Position numbers and translations under genes: made by a program
Source: Meghimatium bilineatum
Lineage: Eukaryota; Mollusca; Gastropoda; Stylommatophora; Philomycidae
Assembly (NCBI GenBank): GCA_034231615.1
Contig: CM067298.1
Location: 33,734,127-33,798,126, forward strand
DNA length: 64,000 nt
Reading direction: 5' to 3'
In this document: piece by piece, positions 18,521 through 58,079 of the stretch
How the letters are laid out: the number at the start of each line of letters is the position of its first letter
Position numbering within the stretch: position 1 is the stretch's first letter
The notes under the pieces: model-generated
The model's input: only the letters and a program-made list of their open reading frames with translations
Told to the model about the DNA's origin: nothing
Databases searched by the model: none

Positions 18521-18955
18521 CTAGCCCAATTTGAAATACAATACTTTCTCTCTGAGGATTTGTCAATCAGATGTCAAGTGTCTTTCTGTACACTCGCATT
18601 ATGTAATCTAGTATGATTGCAAGAAGAAAATCAACTGATTTGAAGTGATCGTTATGAATATACTATTAGCAAATGACGATGCTTCTTCTTGTGTATTCGG
18701 TCTCAAAATTACGCATATTAGCAGGGTATAGTCGGGTAAACAGAATGCATTGTGGGATATGTTTACAACTTTGTTGCTATACCTGAACATTTTGACCATA
18801 CAAACCCAACTTCTGCAATGATTATTGGTCACTTTAACACTTTATGGGACATGGCAAGCAAATCTACCCGATTAAGACCTCGTTAGTCACTTACGATATG
18901 TGTGGCAGTTCATATTGCAACACTTTTGGCTCCCATGTTTGGGCCCTGACAACAC
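18521..18955. other. No gene seen
   Basis: Sequence 5' of the LINE on its strand. Any further RT homology is not recognisable. Confidence 0.4.
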
Positions 18956-19798
18956 ATGATCGATCAAATTGATGTAACATTCACTATAAACACCGAAGCG
19001 AATGATGCAACATTCACTACACAGACCGAATCGAATGATGCAACATTCACTACACAGACCGAAGCGAATGATGCAACATTCACTACACAGACCGAAGCGA
19101 ATGATGCAACATTCACTACACAAACCAAAGCGAATGATGCAACATTCACTACACAATCCGAAGCGAATGATGCAACATTCACTACACAAACCAAAGCGAA
19201 TGATGCAACATTCACTACACAATCCGAAGCGAATGATGCAACATTCACTACACAGACCGAAGCGAATGATGCAACATTCACTACACAAACCAAAGCGAAT
19301 GATGCAACATTCACTACACAGACCGAAGCGAATGATGCAACATTCACTACACAGACCAAAGCGAATGATGCAACATTCACTACACAGACCGAAGCGAAAG
19401 ATGCAACATTCACTACACAGACCGAAGCGAATGATGCAACATTCACTACACAATCCGAAGCGAATGATGCAACATTTACTACACAAACCAAAGCGAATGA
19501 TGCAACATTCACTACACAGACCGAAGCGAATGATGCAACACTCACTACACAAAGCAAAGCGAATGATGCAACATTTACTACACAAACCAAAGCGAATGAT
19601 GCAACATTCACTACACAGACCGAAGAGAATGATGTAACACTCACTACACAAAGCAAAGCGAATGATGCAACATTTACTACACAATCCGAAGCGAATGATG
19701 CAATATTCACTACACAAACCGAAGCAAATGATGCAACATTTACTCCAAAAACTGGAACAAAACACCAGGCAAGATACTTGAGGCCAGATGTGCAATGA
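18956..19798 (+). repeat. 33-bp tandem repeat, about 24 copies, open in four frames
   Basis: The unit GCGAATGATGCAACATTCAC, then TACACAGACCGAA, is 33 bp, so every copy stays in frame. The plus strand has a 280-codon frame of the 11-residue repeat TEANDATFTTQ (18956-19798) and a 211-codon frame of MMQHSLHRPKR. The minus strand has 310 codons (CCIIRFGLCSE) and 248 codons (NVASFASVCVV). Variation among copies includes silent changes in the TEANDATFTTQ frame (CAG/CAA, TTC/TTT) and replacements (Thr/Ser, Glu/Lys, Phe/Leu). No signal peptide, splice context or flanking homology supports a gene. I treat it as a minisatellite with coding potential left open. Confidence 0.9.
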
Positions 19799-20534
19799 CA
19801 TTTGTATAATGCTAAACATTACATCAGTTTAATTACAAAATATTAAACTGCTCATTGATGTTCAAAAGCTTTTAGAGACAGCAAAAATGAACAATGCTCA
19901 GCTTTTTTTTGTTGGGAGTATGGCATCCACGTTTAAAACCCACAACTGAGACCACTTTCTGTACACATTCTTCATAGATTAAAATATTTGTCTCTCTGTC
20001 GCTTCATGTTTTTCATGGCTCGTATGATATTTTAGCAAAAGTGGTGGTTGTGTTCCGTATTTGAGCATTTATTTATTCTTTAAGTAAGAATGGTGATCTC
20101 AAACAGTTGAAACTCTTCGCTAATTCAAGCTGCACATTGTTCTGAATGTATATGCCGTAACAGCTTTTTCTACAAAGAACAACATGTTTCGTATTGTTGT
20201 TAGATATCTATGATAACTGACACAGAAACTGGGCGTATATATTCTTCGAAGGCGAACGCAATAGTAAAATCACTTATGTGAACATCTTTAATGCCGTGAT
20301 ACTCGTTCACAATCAAGAATAATTTTTAGATAAAGAATTCCCATGTCCTTCTCTAGTTAGTGATCCGACTTTGCAGTGTGTCCTCATTATGACCAAATGT
20401 TTCAACGATAGCTTATAAAAGCTCCATGAAGCGAATATCTGGGTATTTTAGTTTCTTCTTTACGATGTTATTGAATAAACATTCGATAAACTATCATTCT
20501 GACACATCAGTCCCCAAGATTATTATGTACAAAT
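19799..20534. other. No gene seen
   Basis: AT-rich, no recognisable motif. Confidence 0.45.
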
Positions 20535-46990: not shown

Positions 46991-47656
46991 AATCAACATG
47001 TTTACCAATGATTAACCAACCCCTTTTGGTTATTGCCCGATTTAAAACAAACGTTCACCACTGCCAAATTTAAAAATTAAATCGATTTCATGAAAACGCA
47101 TAAAAATTAACATAAACGCATACAAATTAACAGACACTTCAAATAAAATAGATACCTCACAATTACCTTCACAATTTTCAAATGTCCTTTCTGTGGGACA
47201 TTCCACTGCTGTAAACTGATCTATCTGCAGTTATGAAGCTTGTTTCTTTACATACTCGTTATTTCACATACATCTCACGGTGATAAACACTTCTTCAAAA
47301 TGCATACATACAACCTGTTTCTTTACAGAAAATGTGGTTAACGTGTAGGCATAGTATTCTATGATTAAGGAAATAACTATGAGTAGCTGTTCTCTTTAGT
47401 TAAGTTGTAAGTGAACAAGTTGGGCATATATCTGAATATCCCTTTCTTTGATCATTATTCTGCGAGTGAATGTAGTTGTGTATAGTCCAAGAAAATATTC
47501 ATCTTATGTTTATGTAGAACATCAATATCCATGTGAAACATTTTATCCATTTTCAAGGCAAGGGGCAAAAATATAGACATAATTACAATGATTAAGATGT
47601 TATAATTTTACAACCGCAATCTATGATTGTGAAACTTAGGCAATGGCATCCGTATT
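46991..47656. other. No gene seen
   Basis: AT-rich sequence immediately before the duplicated segment. Phrases CATAAAAATTAACATAAACG and ACGCATACAAATTAACAG near 47098-47130 form a short repeat. Confidence 0.45.
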
Positions 47657-48127
47657 GTGAAAGAAAATATCAATATTTGAAATAAAATGGTAAAAAAAGG
47701 TCCACAGAATATGGTCCACAGAATATAGATAGAAAGACGGTCCAACGCATACATCCGAAAAGACCTAAGCATAGAAGATGATTGACACATAAATACTGAT
47801 TTTTTAAACAATATCGTAATCTAACATATATTGTATACATAAAAAGACACAATAGGTTGAATTGATTAAGTTAAGATTCTTGTACAGAGACAAGCAGGCA
47901 GTCCAACACTACAATACGCACATGCAAAATGTATCTACTGAATGTAACAGTGGAAGACTGGGCAGCTTCGAAGAGAACCTGATGGCTTACATAGTTGTAT
48001 AGATATTTCTGCAATGGACACGACACACAGAACACAACGTTTTTTGAATAGTCTTCTATTCTTCTTCAGGGTTCACTCTCAAACTCCTGCTGGATCTCTA
48101 GCAGGGCAATGGTCCTACTAGATTTCT

Positions 48128-48220
48128 AGCAGAATGTAGTCCAGAGAATGGAAATGCATTGTGTCGCCGTTTTATGTGCTCCACTGACCCGACACATCCG
48201 TCTTCGGTGTGTTTTGAATA
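48128..48220 (+). repeat. Dispersed repeat family R1, partial copy (segment A)
   Basis: AGAATGTAGTCCAGAGAATG, then GAAATGCATTGTGTCGCCG, then CGACACATCCGTCTTCGG follows the R1 phrase order seen at 59368-59530. A second partial copy follows about 860 bp downstream. Confidence 0.55.
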
Positions 48221-48989
48221 GTCTATGTTTATGTTCTTTAAAAATGACACATACGAATATTTATGTTTCCTTAAGAATAAATTTCGTCTATTCTAGCATG
48301 CAGTTTCACATCTATACCGCTTACAGAATCATTATGTTTCTGGTAAACATCATACAAATATTTTGAATTTGAATTACAATAATGACTGGACCTAAATCAA
48401 CGATTTTCTTATGTCTACTCCAATTTGTGTATTCCTGTGGTGTATTCTGGGAAAGTACAACAACCATTTCAGACATCTAAAACCTCGGTCAGATGAATTG
48501 GCGAAACTTGTTATAATGTAACAGTCAATGTTCTCAAATAGAATTGATTATTATCTCCTATAACCGATAGCTAAACGTGACGTGCGGACAACGGCTTGTT
48601 AACGTAACAAATCACATTTAAAGCTGTTTCGATTACCGGGGACGACAAACACTGTTTTAAGAATGGTACCGCTACTGTAGCCGTGTGTGCAAAAGTTGGA
48701 GAAATCAAATTACATTCTCAGGATAACAGAGCTAAAAACAAACTCTTCCTAACGTTGTAACATTATAAGGGTCTTTGTAGACATGATAAATTGTCAGGAT
48801 TTTGTCATTATGTAGAACTATGCAGAATGTGTGCAATAGTTTATTTATGTCCGTTCTATAGTTGACATGTAGTAAATTCGCATCAAAAACCAACTGCAAC
48901 TTCCTCGGTGACTTTTTTGTTGTGCGGTGAATTATTTCTGAAACTCTCACTGGGTGTCTGATGTAGCAGCACAATAGTTAAACTAGATT

Positions 48990-49090
48990 TCCAGGAGTAT
49001 GTCGCAGTCCAGGGAACAGAAATGAGTTTTGTCGTTTTTTTAAAAATACATCAATGGTTCAATACATCCGATTTCGGCATGCAATAGTTT
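48990..49090 (+). repeat. Dispersed repeat family R1, second partial copy (segment A)
   Basis: GTATGTCGCAGTCCAGGGAA, then CAGAAATGAGTTTTGTCG, then AATACATCCGATTTCGGCAT. It matches 48128-48220 in order and spacing but is diverged. Confidence 0.55.
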
Positions 49091-49214
49091 GAAAAAATAT
49101 GCAGTCAGTTCAGGAATTGGAGAGTTTCAACTGAAATTGTAAAGTCCTTCCTCATGTGATATATTTTTTTCCAGAGAGTATTCATCTTTATAGATAGTCT
49201 GAACTTCATTCTAT

Positions 49215-50033
49215 CCCCAGTGCGTTTACCTGTCTCAGTTAGGGATATGTTTAAACATACGATCCCCAGCGAGTTTACCTGTCTCAGTTAGGGCTATGTT
49301 TAAACATACGATCCCCAGCGAGTTTACCTGTCTCAGGGCTATGTTTAAAAATACGATCCCCAGCGAGTTTACCTGTCTCAGTTAGGGCTATGTTTAAACA
49401 TACGATCCCCAGCGAGTTTACCTGTCACAGTTAGGGCTATGTTTAAACATACGATCGCCAGCGAGTTTACCTGTCTCAGTTAGGGCTATGTTTAAACATA
49501 CGATCCCCAGCGAGTTTACCTGTCTCAGTTAGGGATATGTTTAAACACACGATCCCCAGCGAGTTTACCTGTCTCAGTTAGGGCTATGTTTAAACATACG
49601 ATCCCAAGCGAATTTACCTGTCTCAGTTAGGGATATGTTTAAACATACGATCCCCAGCGAGTTTACCTGTCTCAGTTAGGGTTATGTTTAAAAATACGAT
49701 CCCCAGCGAGTTTACCTGTCTCAGTTAGGGCTATGTTTAAACATACGATCCCCAGCGAGTTTACCTGTCTCAGTTAGGGCTATGTTTAAACATACGATCC
49801 CCAGCGAGTTTACCTGTCTCAGTTAGGGCTATGTTTAAAAAGTACGATCCCCGGCGAGTTTACCAGTCTCAGTTATGGCTATGTTTAAATATACGATCCC
49901 CAGCGAGTTTACCTGTCTCAGTTAGGGCTATGTTTAAACATACGATCCCCAGCGAGTTTACCTGTCTCAGTTAGGGCTATGTTTAAACATACGATCCCCA
50001 GCGAGTTTACCTGTCTCAGGGCTATGTTTAAAC
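49215..50033. repeat. 49-bp tandem array, 17 units (segment A)
   Basis: The unit TATGTTTAAACATACGATCC, then CCAGCGAGTTTACCTGTCTC, then AGTTAGGGC. Distinctive variants occur in a fixed order: a shortened unit (CTCAGGGCT) third, CTGTCACAG fifth, GATCGCC, then ACACACGATCC, then CAAGCGAATTT, then CCGGCGAG with ACCAGTCTC. Segment B has the same variants in the same order. There are no unique spacers, so this is not a CRISPR array. Confidence 0.97.
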
Positions 50034-50044
50034 AATCTGAGATG

Positions 50045-50275
50045 TCTGAAATTCATCATCGCCATGAAGGGTCCTTGTATCTGCTCCCATAAGCCATACC
50101 TTCCATTCTAAATTTTTCCATGGTGTTATGTCTCTTTGTATGGCAAATATATCACAGCTATCTTATCGCAATCTTGTTTAAATGCCAACCTTCTTTATCG
50201 TTTAATCTTCTTATCAATTCTTGTTTTGTCTTTTTCGCTGTCCATGGTACTCTGAAAATCCATCTGTAGTTGTGT
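50045..50275 (-). pseudogene. LINE ORF2 C-terminal fragment (segment A)
   Basis: The minus strand reads RWIFRVPWTAKKTKQELIRR, then LNDKEGWHLNKIAIR. After a frameshift it reads KRHNTMEKFRMEGMAYGSRY. This is the RRI.R.PWTAKKT..E...RLN.KE..LLNKI and KRHNTMEKFIMEG order of a LINE tail. The copy at 55845-56070 is nearly identical. Confidence 0.8.
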
Positions 50276-50535
50276 ATAGTAAAGCTTACTGAAAAACTTT
50301 GCATATTGCATCGTTACAGACGCATCTGGTTACTGCGGTTAATATAAAAGGAATGGGTTGATTGTAATGCACTGGACATACGCTGTCTCATATCTGCAAC
50401 CAATAACAACTTCAAAAATCTTTCTATTTTTCTGTCTGTTGTCCTTTGAATGACGATCCATCGGCACCGAATCGCATGGCAACTCCATTAAACGTTTACT
50501 GGGAGTTGCCAAACGATCACGCTTCCACAACTTTT
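50276..50535. other. Unassigned spacer between LINE fragment and 31-bp array (segment A)
   Basis: The minus-strand 63-codon frame at 50339-50530 (MWKRDRLATPSKRLMELPCD and onward) has ordinary composition. I do not recognise it. Segment B carries the same sequence with single-base differences that break this frame. Confidence 0.4.
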
Positions 50536-51494
50536 CAGGTATCTGACATCACGAAGTCCAATGTTTCAGGTATCTGACATCACGAAGTCCAATGTTTCAG
50601 GTATCTGACATCACGAAGTCCAATGTTTCAGGTATCTGACATCACGAAGTCCAATGTTTCAGGTATCTGACATCACGAAGTCCAATGTTTCAGGTATCTG
50701 ACATCACGAAGTCCAATGTTTCAGGTATCTGACATCACGAAGTCCAATGTTTCAGGTATCTGACATCACGAGGTCCAATGTTTCAGGTATCTGACATCAC
50801 GAAGTCCAATGTTTCAGGTATCTGACATCACGAAGTCCAATGTTTCAGGTATCTGACATCACGAAGTCCAATGTTTCAGGTATCTGACATCACGAAGTCC
50901 AATGTTTCAGGTATCTGACATCACGAAGTCCAATGTTTCAGGTATCTGACATCACGAAGTCCAATGTTTCAGGTATCTGACATCACGAAGTACAATGTTT
51001 CAGGTATCTGACATCACGAAATCTAATGTTTGAGGAATCTGACATCACGAGGTCCAATGTTTCAGGTATCTGACATCACGAAGTCCAATGTTTCACGTAT
51101 CTGACATCACTAAGTCCAATGTTTCACGTATCTGACATCACTAAGTCCAATGTTTCAGGTATCTGACATCACGAAGTCTAATGTTTGAGGAATCTGACAT
51201 CACGAGGTCCAATGTTTCAGGTATCTGACATCACGAAGTCTAATGTTTGAGGAATCTGACATCACGAGGTCCAATGTTTCAGGTATCTGACATCACGAAG
51301 TCCAATGTTTCAGGTATCTGACATCACGAAGTCCAATGTTTCAGGTATCTGACATCACGAAGTCCAATGTTTCAGGTATCTGACATCACGAAGTCCAATG
51401 TTTCACGTATCTGACATCACGAAGTCCAATGTTTCACGTATCTGACATCACGAAGTCCAATGTTTCACGTATCTGACATCACGAAGTCCAATGC
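50536..51494. repeat. 31-bp tandem array, about 31 units (segment A)
   Basis: The unit is TTCAGGTATCTGACATCACG, then AAGTCCAATGT. The first dozen units are almost identical. Later units carry GAGGAATC, ACGAGGTCC, TTCACGTATC and CACTAAGTCC variants in blocks, showing higher-order amplification. Confidence 0.97.
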
Positions 51495-51540
51495 TTTTGA
51501 CGATGATACCACATAAACTGTTAAATCCATGGGCATTTTC

Positions 51541-52365
51541 TTAATAATACAATCACCAAATACTTAATAATACAATCACCAAATACTTAATAATACAATC
51601 ACCAAATACTTAATAATACAATCACCAAATACTTAATAATACAATCACCAAATACTTAATAATACAATCACCAAATACTTAATAATACAATCACCAAATA
51701 CTTAATAATACAATCACCAAATACTTAATAATACAATCACCAAATACTTAATAATACAATCACCAAATACTTAATAATACAATCACCAAATACTTAATAA
51801 TACAATCACCAAATACTTAATAATACAATCACCAAATACTTAATAATACAATCACCAAATACTTAATAATACAATCACCAAATTATTTAATACAATCACC
51901 AAATACTTAATAATACAATCACCAAATACTAATAATACAATCACCAAATACTTAATAATACAATCACCAAATACTTAATAATACAATCACCAAATACTTA
52001 ATAATACAATCACCAAATACTTAATAATACAATCACCAAATACTTAATAATACAATCACCAAATACTTAATAATACAATCACCAAATACTTAATAATACA
52101 ATCACCAAATACTTAATAATACAATCACCAAATACTTAATAATACAATCACCAAATACTTAATAATACAATCACCAAATACTTAATAATACAATCACCAA
52201 ATACTTAATAATACAATCACCAAATACTTAATAATACAATCACCAAATACTTAATAATACAATCACCAAATACTTAATAATACAATCACCAAATAATTAA
52301 TAATACAATCACCAAATACTTAATAATACAATCACCAAATACCTAATAATACAATCATCAAATAC
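51541..52365. repeat. 23-bp tandem array, about 36 units (segment A)
   Basis: The unit is CTTAATAATACAATCACCAA, then ATA. It is almost perfect, with one shortened unit (ATTATTTAATAC near 51880) and one lacking CT near 51930. Segment B has only about four units at the same place. Confidence 0.98.
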
Positions 52366-52894
52366 TGATGACCTAGGCATTTCGTTTTCTATTTCATTTT
52401 GTCGGTTTAGAAATAATTGGCGGCGACAATAAAATTCCAACAGAACAAGAATATTGACAAATATGGACAACATAAACATGTACAAATAAATGAAAAATGT
52501 ATTTTTAAAATCTCTTCATGATAAATGACAATTGTGTATTTTTGATATGCTAATCATGCCAGCATAACTAAAGTGTATGCATATTGGCAAATGAATTTCA
52601 TTTTGTTGGGTTGGATAAACATAACAAAAGAACCGAAACATGCTATCATATGTAATTTATTTGATGAATAAATTAAATAATAAAATATAACTCAACTGAG
52701 ATATGTTGTACATTATAAGTAGTTAGACTAGATAAATTTACCAAAGCTGCTAAGGTATGGCAGAAATAATTTGGTGGATGCAACAAACGTACTGTCATAA
52801 CTGAAGAATGATGTAATCATATTAGATCAGAATAAATTACAGAAATAACACTGATAAACATGTTTCAGAAGTAATTTCAGGAATAATTTAACAT
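52366..52894. other. No gene seen (segment A)
   Basis: AT-rich spacer between the 23-bp array and the LINE fragment, shared with segment B at 56900-57430. Confidence 0.5.
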
Positions 52895-53391
52895 GCCAAC
52901 ATAATTTTTTTAATATGTCAACTATAGTGAACATAATGGAAATTATGGGCTTCCCACACCATCCCATATCGCTCATTAACATGCTTTCTCGGGAGAAAAC
53001 AGGCTTCTTCCGTCTCGACTGCGAAACATTTGCTGGTCTGAGGTCCAAAAAGTAGTCACAAAAAGGGATTAATCCATTCATCACATTTGTTGAACATAAG
53101 CAGAAATTATCGTGTTAAATGTTTGCAGAGACTCACAATATGAACAGTTTCAACCCCTTAATTTAGGAGGACATGCGATTCAGAAATTGGTTGTGCAGAT
53201 GACACAACCCTAATATCAAGAAGTCCCCCCGGTTAGAATATATGATTATGTCAATTAAATATTAAATCAAGCCACTCAGTATTTTCCTCAATGCAAAACT
53301 GGAAAAAATAATGCACATCAAGAGATGAACTCTCACATACAATTGACAATGACAAAGAACAACTAGAAAATGTCAGCACCATTGAACATCT
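52895..53391 (+). pseudogene. LINE reverse-transcriptase fragment (segment A, cut by the gap)
   Basis: The plus strand reads VNIMEIMGFPHHPISLINML, then KGINPFITFVEH (decayed RQGC.LSP.LFN.Y), then, after a frameshift, IGCADDTTLIS, and VFSSMQNWKK with LSHTIDNDKEQLENVSTIEH. It continues to the gap edge. A one-base deletion relative to segment B (GATTCAGAAA against GATTCCAGAAA) adds a frameshift next to the CADD catalytic block. Confidence 0.75.
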
Positions 53392-53491
53392 NNNNNNNNN
53401 NNNNNNNNNNNNNNNNNNNNNNNNNNNNNNNNNNNNNNNNNNNNNNNNNNNNNNNNNNNNNNNNNNNNNNNNNNNNNNNNNNNNNNNNNNN
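53392..53491. other. Assembly gap, exactly 100 N
   Basis: A run of exactly 100 N. A round number is normally a placeholder of unknown size between contigs. The duplicated segment ends at its left edge and begins again at its right edge. Confidence 0.99.
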
Positions 53492-53969
53492 GTGAAAGAA
53501 AATATCAATATTTGAAATAAAATGGTAAAAAAAGGTCCACAGAATATGGTCCACAGGAATATAGATAGAAAGATGGTCCAACGCATACATCCGAAAAGAC
53601 CTAAGCATAGAAGACGATTGACACATAAATACTGATTTTTTAAAACAATATCGTAATCTAACATATATTGTATACATAAAAAGACACAATAGGTTGAATT
53701 GATTAAGTTAAGATTCTTGTACAGAGACAAGCAGGGCAGTCCAACACTACAATACGGCACATGCAAAATGTATCTACTGAATGTAACAGTGGAAGACTGG
53801 GCAGCTTCGAAGAGAACCTGATGGCCTTACATAGTTGTATAGATATTTCTGCAATGGACACGACACACAGAACACAACGTTTTTTGAATAGTCTTCTATT
53901 CTTCTTCAGGGTTCACTCTCAAACTCCTGCTGGATCTCTAGCAGGGCAATGGTCCTACTAGATTTCTAG

Positions 53970-54060
53970 CAGAATGTAGTCCAGAGAATGGAAATGCATT
54001 GTGTCGCCGTTTTATGTGCTCCACTGACCCGACACATCCGTCTTCGGTGGGTTTGAATAG
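53970..54060 (+). repeat. Dispersed repeat family R1, partial copy (segment B)
   Basis: Counterpart of 48128-48220. Confidence 0.5.
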
Positions 54061-54837
54061 TCTATGTTTATGTTCTTTAAAAATGACACATACGAATATT
54101 TATGTTTCCTTAAGAATAAATTTCGTCTATTCTAGCATGCAGTTTCACATCTATACCAGCTTACCAGAATCATTATGTTTCTGGTAAACATCATACAAAT
54201 ATTTTGAATTTGAATTACAATAATGACTGGACCTAAATCAAACGATTTTCTTATGTCTACTTCCAATTTGTGTATTCCTGTGGTGTATTCTGGGAAAGTA
54301 CAACAACCATTTCAGACATCTAAAACCTCGGTCAGATGAATTGGCGAAACTTGTTATAATGTAACAGTCAATGTTCTCAAATAGAATTGAATTATTATCT
54401 CCCTATAACCGATAGCTAAACGTGACGTGCGGACAACGGCTTGTTAACGTAACAAATCACATTTAAAGCTGTTTCGATTACCGGGGACGACAAACACTGT
54501 TTTAAGAATGGTACCGCTACTGTAGCCGTGTGTGCAAAAGTTGGAGAAATCAAATTACATTCTCAGGATAACAGAGCTAAAAACAAAACTCTTCCTAACG
54601 TTGTAACATTATAAGGGTCTTTGTAGACATGATAAATTGTCAGGATTTTGTCATTATGTAGAACTATGCAGAATGTGTGCAATAGTTTATTTATGTCCGT
54701 TCTATAGTTGACATGTAGTAAATGCGCATCAAAAACCAACTGCAACTTCCTCGGTGACTTTTTTTGTTGTGCGGTGAATTATTTCTGAAACTCTCACTGG
54801 GTGTCTGATGTAGCAGCACAATATAGTTAAACTAGAT

Positions 54838-54940
54838 TTCCAGGAGTATGTCGCAGTCCAGGGAACAGAAATGAGTTTTGTCGTTTTTTTAAAAAATACA
54901 TCAATGGTTCAATACATCCGATTTCGGCATGCAATAGTTT
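54838..54940 (+). repeat. Dispersed repeat family R1, second partial copy (segment B)
   Basis: Counterpart of 48990-49090. Confidence 0.5.
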
Positions 54941-55064
54941 GAAAAAATATGCAGTCAGTTCAGGAATTGGAGAGTTTCAACTGAAATTGTAAAGTCCTTC
55001 CTCATGTGATATATTTTTTTCCAGAGAGTATTCATCTTTATAGATAGTCTGAACTTCATTCTAT

Positions 55065-55833
55065 CCCCAGTGCGTTTACCTGTCTCAGTTAGGGATATGT
55101 TTAAACATACGATCCCCAGCGAGTTTACCTGTCTCAGTTAGGGCTATGTTTAAACATACGATCCCCAGCGAGTTTACCTGTCTCAGGGCTATGTTTAAAA
55201 ATACGATCCTCAGCGAGTTTACCTGTCTCAGTTAGGGCTATGTTTAAACATACGATCCCCAGCGAGTTTACCTGTCACAGTTAGGGCTATGTTTAAACAT
55301 ACGATCGCCAGCGAGTTTACCTGTCTCAGTTAGGGCTATGTTTAAACATACGATCCCCAACGAGTTTACCTGTCTCAGTTAGGGATATGTTTAAACACAC
55401 GATCCCCAGCGAGTTTACCTGTCTCAGTTAGGGCTATGTTTAAACATACGATCCCAAGCGAATTTACCTGTCTCAGTTAGGGATATGTTTAAACATACGA
55501 TCCCCAGCGAGTTTACCTGTCTCAGTTAGGGTTATGTTTAAAAATACGATCCCCAGCGAGTTTACCTGTCTCAGTTAGGGCTATGTTTAAACATACGATC
55601 CCCAGCGAGTTTACCTGTCTCAGTTAGGGCTATGTTTAAACATACGATCCCCAGCGAGTTTACCTGTCTCAGTTAGGGCTATGTTTAAAAATACGATCCC
55701 CGGCGAGTTTACCAGTCTCAGTTAGGGCTATGTTTAAACATACGATCCCCAGCGAGTTTACCTGTCTCAGTTAGGGCTATGTTTAAACATACGATCCCCA
55801 GCGAGTTTACCTGTCTCAGAGCTATGTTTAAAC
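55065..55833. repeat. 49-bp tandem array, 16 units (segment B)
   Basis: Same unit and same ordered variants as 49215-50033, with one unit fewer near the right end. The unit that has TTATGGCT and AAATATACG in segment A is the one missing. Confidence 0.97.
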
Positions 55834-55844
55834 AATCTGAGATG

Positions 55845-56070
55845 TCTGAAATTCATCATCGCCATGAAGGGTCCTTGTATCTGCTCCCATAAGCCATACC
55901 TTCCATTCTAAATTTTTCCATGGTGTTATGTCTCTTTGTATGGCAAATATATCACAGCTATCTTATCGCAATCTTGTTTAAATGCCAACCTTCTTCATCG
56001 TTTAATCTTCTTATCAATTCTTGTTTTGTCTTTTTCGCTGTCCATGGTACTCTGAAAATCCATCTGTAGT
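55845..56070 (-). pseudogene. LINE ORF2 C-terminal fragment (segment B)
   Basis: Counterpart of 50045-50275 with the same motifs (PWTAKKTKQELIRRLNDEEG-type block, KRHNTMEKFRMEGM). Differences are single bases. Confidence 0.8.
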
Positions 56071-56329
56071 TGTGTAGTAAAGCTTACTGAAAAACTTTGC
56101 ATATTGCATCGTTACAGACGCATCTGGTTACTGCGGTTAATATAAAAGGAATGGGTTGATTGTAATGCACTGGACATACGCTGTCTCATATCTGCAACCA
56201 ATAACAACTTCAAAAATCTTTCTATTTTTCTGTCTGTTGTCCTTTGAATGACGATCCATCGGCACCGAATCGCATGGCAACTCCATTAAACGTTTACTGG
56301 AGTTGCCAACGATCACGCTTCCACAACTT

Positions 56330-56765
56330 TTCAGGTATCTGACATCACGAAGTCCAATGTTTCAGGTATCTGACATCACGAAGTCCAATGTTTCAGGTAT
56401 CTGACATCACGAAGTCCAATGTTTCAGGTATCTGACATCACGAAGTCCAATGTTTCAGGTATCTGACATCACGAAGTCCAATGTTTCAGGTATCTGACAT
56501 CACGAAGTCCAATGTTTCAGGTATCTGACATCACGAAGTCCAATGTTTCAGGTATCTGACATCACGAAGTCCAATGTTTCAGGCATCTGACATCACGAAG
56601 TCCAATGTTTCAGGTATCTGACATCACGAAGTCTAATGTTTGAGGAATCTGACATCACGAGGTCCAATGTTTCAGGTATCTGACATCACGAAGTCCAATG
56701 TTTCACGTATCTGACATCACTAAGTCCAATGTTTCACGTATCTGACATCACGAAGTCCAATGCTT
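56330..56765. repeat. 31-bp tandem array, about 14 units (segment B)
   Basis: Same unit as 50536-51494. The same terminal variant units are present, so the shortfall lies mainly in the homogeneous part and the repeated GAGGAATC blocks. Confidence 0.97.
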
Positions 56766-56809
56766 TGACGATGATACCACATAAACTGTTAAATCCATGG
56801 GCATTTTCT

Positions 56810-56902
56810 TAATAATACAATCACCAAATACTTAATAATACAATCATCAAATACTTAATAATACAATCACCAAATACTTAATAATACAATCATCAAATAC
56901 TG
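56810..56902. repeat. 23-bp tandem array, about four units (segment B)
   Basis: Same unit as 51541-52365 with matching first and last units and ATCATCAAATACTGATG at the right border. About 32 units fewer than segment A. Confidence 0.97.
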
Positions 56903-57434
56903 ATGACCTAGGCATTTCGTTTTCTATTTCATTTTGTCGGTTTAGAAATAATTGGCGGCGACAATAAATTTCCAACAGAACAAGAATATTGACAAATATG
57001 GACAACATAAACATGTACAAATAAATAAAAAATGTATTTTTAAAATCTCTTCATGATAAATGACAATTGTGTATTTTTGATATGCTAATCATGCCAGCAT
57101 AACTAAAGTGTATGCATATTGGCAAATGAATTTCATTTTGTTGGGTTGGATAAACACAACAAAAGAACCGAAACATGCTATCATATGTAATTTATTTGAT
57201 GTAAATTAAATAATAAATATAACTCAATTGAGATATGTTGTACATTATAGGTAGTTAGACCAGATAAATTTACCAAAGCTGCTAAGGTATGGCAGAAATA
57301 ATTTGGTGGATGCAACAAACGTACTGTCATAACTGAAGAATGATGTGATCATATTAGATCAGAATAAATTACAGAAATAACACTGATAAACATGTTTCAG
57401 AAGTAATTTCAGGAATAATTTAACATGCCAACAT
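56903..57434. other. No gene seen (segment B)
   Basis: Counterpart of the AT-rich spacer at 52366-52894. Confidence 0.5.
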
Positions 57435-58020
57435 AATTTATTTAATATGCCAACTATAGTGAACATAATGGAAATTATGGGCTTCCCACACCATCCCATA
57501 TCGCTCATTAACATGCTTTCTCGGGAGAAACAGGCTTCTTCCGTCTCGACTGCCAAACATTTGCTGGTCTGAGGTCCAAAATGTAGTCAAACAGGGATTA
57601 ATCCATTCATCACATTTGTTGAACATATGCAGAAATTATCGTGTTAAATGTTTGCAGAGACTCACAATATGAACAGTTTCAACCCCTTAATTTAGGAGGA
57701 CATGCGATTCCAGAAATTGGTTGTGCAGATGACACAACCCTAATATCAAGAAGTCCCCCCGGTTAGAATATATGATTATGTCAATTAAATATTAAATCAA
57801 GGCACTCAGTATTTTCCTCAATGCAAAACTGGAAAAAATAATGCACACCAAGAGATGAACTCTCACATACAATTGACAATGACAAAGAACAACTAGAAAA
57901 TGTCAGCACCATTGAACATCTCGGGTCAATGGTCGGCCTCACAGTATAATGTTCAGCAGAGCTCACGAAGACTTTAACAATGTCTTAACAAAAAATACCC
58001 CAGTTGCAAAATCTATAGCA
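57435..58020 (+). pseudogene. LINE reverse-transcriptase fragment with CADD motif (segment B and beyond)
   Basis: The plus strand reads VNIMEIMGFPHHPISLINML, then INPFITFVEHMQKLS, GGHAIPEIGCADDTTLISRS (the F/YADD catalytic block, here CADD, both aspartates kept), then VFSSMQNWKK, LSHTIDNDKEQLENVSTIEH, LGSMVG, and finally FNNVLTKNTPVAKSIARG. This is RT palm through thumb of a LINE, with several frameshifts. It runs past the end of segment A and stops at a (TA)n tract. Confidence 0.8.
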
Positions 58021-58023
58021 AGG

Positions 58024-58026
<3 letters not shown>

Positions 58027-58079
<53 letters not shown>
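58027..58079. repeat. (TA)n microsatellite
   Basis: About 26 AT dinucleotides with a single break (ATAATATA) near 58059. It abuts the decayed LINE on its 3' side. Confidence 0.97.

Follow-up and report, generated by a model that had tools for sequence, protein, structure and literature searches.

We analyzed a 64,000-nucleotide stretch of the Meghimatium bilineatum genome assembly (hereafter the window), which lies within the assembly sequence C1 (135,710,302 bases) and contains a single run of N (100 bases at 53392-53491). The facing ends of the two contigs that meet at this assembly gap match each other end to end: the tip of the left contig (copy A) faces a near-identical copy at the start of the right contig (copy B; Table 1). 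Based on the assembled sequence and on the published assembly recipe, we conclude with high confidence that A and B are a false duplication caused by an unmerged heterozygous contig overlap, which is a known kind of assembly artefact. Such an overlap was proposed in the original prediction, and it is now backed by a second gap with a like anatomy, by the published recipe and by a divergence between the copies that is near the heterozygosity of the genome.

We compared the sequence left of the gap with the sequence right of the gap using BLASTN. The first piece of the match pairs 47657-49989 with 53492-55834 (98.7% identity) and the last piece pairs 52273-53391 with 56808-57921 (97.8%). A middle piece (49256-50969 against 55057-56766; 96.6%) is offset from the first one by one unit of a 49-bp minisatellite array. 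The global alignment of 47657-53391 with 53492-57921, in the same orientation, starts at the first base of both copies and ends at the last base of both, which confirms the earlier observation that near-identical segments of about 5.7 kb and 4.4 kb meet exactly at a 100-N gap. Outside three minisatellite arrays, the copies show 24 substitutions over 3068 aligned bases (0.78%) as well as some short indels. The difference in length between A and B (5735 vs 4430 bases) comes mostly from these minisatellites.

We then evaluated how often these sequences occur in the assembly that was searched (1,612,235,226 bases in 32 contigs), where all match counts represent lower bounds. For the first 1509 bases of B, the 40 of 4887 candidates scored in the 1.61-Gb genome include two matches over the full length, and these are A and B themselves; the other matches listed correspond to a short dispersed repeat. 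Because no other full-length match is among the candidates scored, the likeness of the two copies is not due to chance. Similarly, the segment 55835-56328, which carries a dispersed repeat over approximately its first 235 bases, was matched in full only at A and B among the best 40 of 857 candidates. The segment 56902-57460 yielded only two candidates, both of which matched and correspond once more to A and B; we therefore rejected the idea that the entire duplicated segment is a multi-copy element. A search with the whole of B (39 of 8380 candidates scored) returned dispersed repeats only and did not list B's own locus; this search therefore has no bearing on copy number.

The original prediction relied on the coincidence of the duplication with both contig ends, on the grounds that a biological tandem duplication would have no reason to end there. 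This argument is weak by itself, since an assembler halted by a genuine tandem repeat would also yield one contig ending with the unit and another one starting with it, and evidence beyond geometry is therefore needed. We extended the scan to the next 200 kb downstream (264 kb in all) and found one further 100-N gap, about 202 kb on (C1:33989282-33989381). At this gap, the final 2.76 kb of the left contig match the first 3.38 kb of the right contig; the match reaches the last base of the left contig and starts at base 11 of the right contig, whose first 10 bases are unmatched. The two BLAST pieces (97.6% and 94.0%) flank another length-variable minisatellite (Table 1), and with arrays left out the contigs differ by 14 substitutions over 1290 bases in the 5' block (1.09%) and by one over 145 in the 3' block. 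End-to-end overlaps were thus observed at both gaps present in the 264 kb.

These overlaps were compared with the rest of the same region. Comparing the 264 kb with itself by megablast on the plus strand produced 365 rows with a length of 300 bases or more, of which 206 with overlapping copies (tandem arrays) were set aside, as were pieces under 300 bases. Among the 159 rows with non-overlapping copies that were kept, only four were direct repeats reaching both 1 kb and 95% identity, and all four are located at the two gaps; no ungapped duplication of this length and identity was found outside tandem arrays in this self-scan. In addition, we drew 300 random breakpoints and dropped 41 that were near gaps. 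A two-sided match was found at only 3 of the 259 tested breakpoints, all three within minisatellite arrays, and a one-sided match was found at three more.

The published assembly recipe is consistent with these observations. The part of its description on which we rely (PMC10770140) reports 71.33 Gb of high-fidelity (HiFi) reads with a mean length of 18,638, processed with hifiasm 0.16.0, Purge_Haplotigs, 3D-DNA and JuiceBox into a 1.61-Gb assembly of 25 chromosomes and seven unanchored scaffolds. The HiFi reads are public under the accessions SRR25919043 and SRR25919044. It also gives 2521 anchored contigs (330 of them in chromosome 1), 842 duplicated benchmarking universal single-copy orthologs out of 5295 (15.90%) and a heterozygosity of 1.05%, which is of the same order as the divergence between A and B. 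Under an unmerged overlap, the left contig would end within one haplotype of this minisatellite-rich locus, and the start of the right contig would belong to the other haplotype. The assembler plausibly failed to join them because the 31-bp and 23-bp arrays differ strongly in length between the alleles. According to the passages of the purge_dups account considered here (PMC7203741), Purge_Haplotigs does not detect heterozygous overlaps between primary contigs, and the redundant piece would thus have stayed. Hi-C scaffolding would then have set the contigs end to end with the 100-N gap that we observe. If the contigs overlap in this way, nothing would be missing at the gap, and each haplotype would have a single copy of the real locus, with a length of about 5.7 kb in one and about 4.4 kb in the other.

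We further analyzed whether the differences between the copies resemble alleles or errors, since the original prediction left both options open. Substitutions at about 0.8% and large differences in array length are atypical of HiFi errors, and alleles therefore fit better than error versions. The last 460 bases belong to a repeat family, of which eight other copies served to polarize the differences (two more columns, where this slice begins, were left out). Six substitutions could be assigned, three derived in A and three derived in B, and this even split fits two alleles. The three short indels assigned in the same bases were all derived in A (two insertions and one deletion), which fits extra errors close to A's tip. 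The remainder of the first 1.55 kb gave no polarizable differences. In a 160-base dispersed repeat, A differs at 48210 from all 12 copies reaching that site; this position is at the edge of the repeat and was given no weight.

Pieces of one or two bases present in only one copy are unevenly distributed: 14 are surplus in B and one in A in the 5' block (the first 1.55 kb), whereas four are surplus in A and one in B in the 3' block (P = 0.0049; Fisher test). Pooling the middle block, where A has three and B none, with the 3' block was our own choice and yields P = 2.5e-4. The surplus in the 5' and 3' blocks falls on the contig with the nearer tip. The original prediction described many one-base deletions in A: this holds for the 5' block, where A is short by 14 pieces against one, but not for the middle and 3' blocks, where A has the surplus. 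Its attribution of these deletions to a poorly polished end of A is not supported by their location, because 14 of the 15 short pieces missing from A are in A's first 1.55 kb, which is 4-6 kb from A's tip and near B's.

Several observations weigh against an unmerged overlap. The first gap was picked for its overlap, so that the independent sample amounts to one gap out of one. The evidence for a link between indel surplus and contig tips is mixed: the 5' and 3' blocks of the first gap agree with it, but the pattern is not clear at gap C1:33989282, and the surplus in the middle block falls on A although B's tip is somewhat nearer (about 2.3-2.8 kb vs 2.9-3.4 kb). Therefore, tip errors do not explain everything. 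Both contig tips are situated about 100 bp inside the boundaries (47557 and ~58030) of two fragments of a family related to long interspersed nuclear elements (LINE; an affiliation that we assume from a reverse-transcriptase motif read by eye in the match lines), whose family coordinates nearly meet. The left-edge fragment comprises family positions ~2060 onward and the right-edge fragment extends up to ~2075. This proximity would be better explained by contigs broken at the boundaries of a genuine repeat than by chance. In six of eight family loci the two fragments are directly consecutive, with insertions between them in the other two; at the A/B locus their order is swapped and the unit lies in between. 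Two real copies in tandem would bring the fragments back into their usual order across the gap, and this is the best point in favor of a real duplication.

It is accordingly necessary to consider that a unit of 4.4-5.7 kb was in reality recently duplicated in tandem and that the assembler failed to cross the pair, with contigs ending near the repeat edges and a short true gap between them. Contigs stopped by such a repeat would also meet at a gap, and their tips are indeed within about 110 bp of the two fragment boundaries, both of which have GCAAGGGGCA nearby. However, A and B together span about 10.3 kb, and HiFi reads with a mean length of 18.6 kb should have spanned a real pair of this size and separated its copies by their 0.78% divergence and array differences. 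Moreover, the self-scan of the 264 kb revealed no ungapped duplication of at least 1 kb and 95% identity outside tandem arrays, and the like anatomy of the next gap, with a divergence also near heterozygosity, would mean that two duplications of similar age arose independently and were both left unresolved. We consider this explanation very unlikely. A more specific version, in which the duplication is edged by the two LINE-like fragments and its junction restores the family order, as by an integrated circle or unequal exchange, appears highly improbable. Chance is a plausible source of the arrangement at the edges: counting the matches within A and B, the family occurs 29 times in the 264 kb with E values of 0.001 or less. 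We gave low weight to this anatomy, given that read length is almost double that of the pair, that the family is locally dense and that the second gap presents the same fault. The best match between the 400-base blocks around the two ends of the unit is only 18 bases long (88.9%; E = 0.015), which argues against a real duplication having arisen by exchange between long homologous ends.

Finally, the two contigs could be error versions of a single haplotype (a homotype false duplication), as the opposite indel surpluses near the two tips and the A-derived indels near A's tip might suggest, but this is scarcely credible given that HiFi errors would not be expected to produce as many as 24 substitutions in 3068 bases or arrays that differ by 17 and 32 units, that the substitutions of the last 460 bases are evenly split and that the indel surplus of the middle block falls on A, the contig with the more distant tip.

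The coordinates of the features are listed in Table 1. The LINE-like fragment at the right edge can be followed past 57921 to 58022-58035 by its match to seven of the eight family loci (to 58038 by profile), and its counterpart in A (52926-53391) is cut mid-element by the end of the contig. Apart from the arrays of the A/B locus, a 33-bp minisatellite at 18887-19828 contains several frames open on both strands, with open reading frames of up to 313 codons; these are probably repeat artefacts and not genes. A minus-strand open reading frame at 390-872 presents a weak match to GIY-YIG (Pfam E = 3.1e-4; 21.4 bits for a cut-off of 22.6) and possibly derives from a mobile element. An Rfam search of the window returned nothing at gathering score. 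Outside C1, the region around C2:121989805-121990428 contains a mitochondrial-like stretch with COX1 (identified by PF00115), followed by other repeats recognized by eye. It presumably also includes ND4 and ND2, which we named by eye from the translation, and it is probably a nuclear copy of mitochondrial DNA.

Table 1. Features of the overlap locus (window coordinates) and the minisatellite at the second gap.
Feature	Position	Strand	Remarks
Copy A, terminal 5735 bases of left contig	47657..53391	+	Last base adjoins gap; end-to-end alignment with B
Scaffold gap, 100 N	53392..53491	.	
Copy B, first 4430 bases of right contig	53492..57921	+	First base adjoins gap
49-bp minisatellite	A 49213..50034; B 55063-55834	+	16.9 copies in A; 15.9 in B
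31-bp minisatellite	A 50533..51493; B 56329-56762	+	31.0 copies in A; 14.0 in B
23-bp minisatellite	A 51540..52366; B 56808-56901	+	36.1 copies in A; 4.1 in B
LINE-like fragment, right edge	57457..58038	+	In B, past 57921 into right flank; profile match
Second fragment of LINE-like family	47556..48034 (start ~47557)	+	Left flank across A's start; profile match
44-bp minisatellite at gap C1:33989282			7.0 copies (left contig) vs 23.0 (right contig)

These results are relevant to quality control only. An unmerged overlap implies that about 4.4-5.7 kb of the 64-kb window are probably redundant. The like fault at the next gap suggests that such overlaps may be common in this assembly, although this is an extrapolation from one independent gap. 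Wherever gene gains or recent tandem duplications have been called close to gaps of this assembly, a check against the reads is warranted.

The A/B locus closely resembles the heterozygous contig overlaps targeted by purge_dups. As presented in the part of that work considered here (PMC7203741), two primary contigs keep allelic sequence in both cases, and overlaps of this type are left in place by Purge_Haplotigs and are not handled by scaffolders such as SALSA; 3D-DNA, the scaffolder used for this genome, is not named beside SALSA in that part of the account. We see no essential difference from the overlaps described there, to which the A/B locus adds three length-variable minisatellites. The locus is also similar to the heterotype false duplications defined elsewhere, in which, in the portion of the source consulted (PMC9516828), adjacent duplicates are likewise separated by an assembly gap. 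Further criteria given there are haploid depth, discordant read pairs and heterozygous k-mers, whereas A and B were assessed from the assembled sequence alone.

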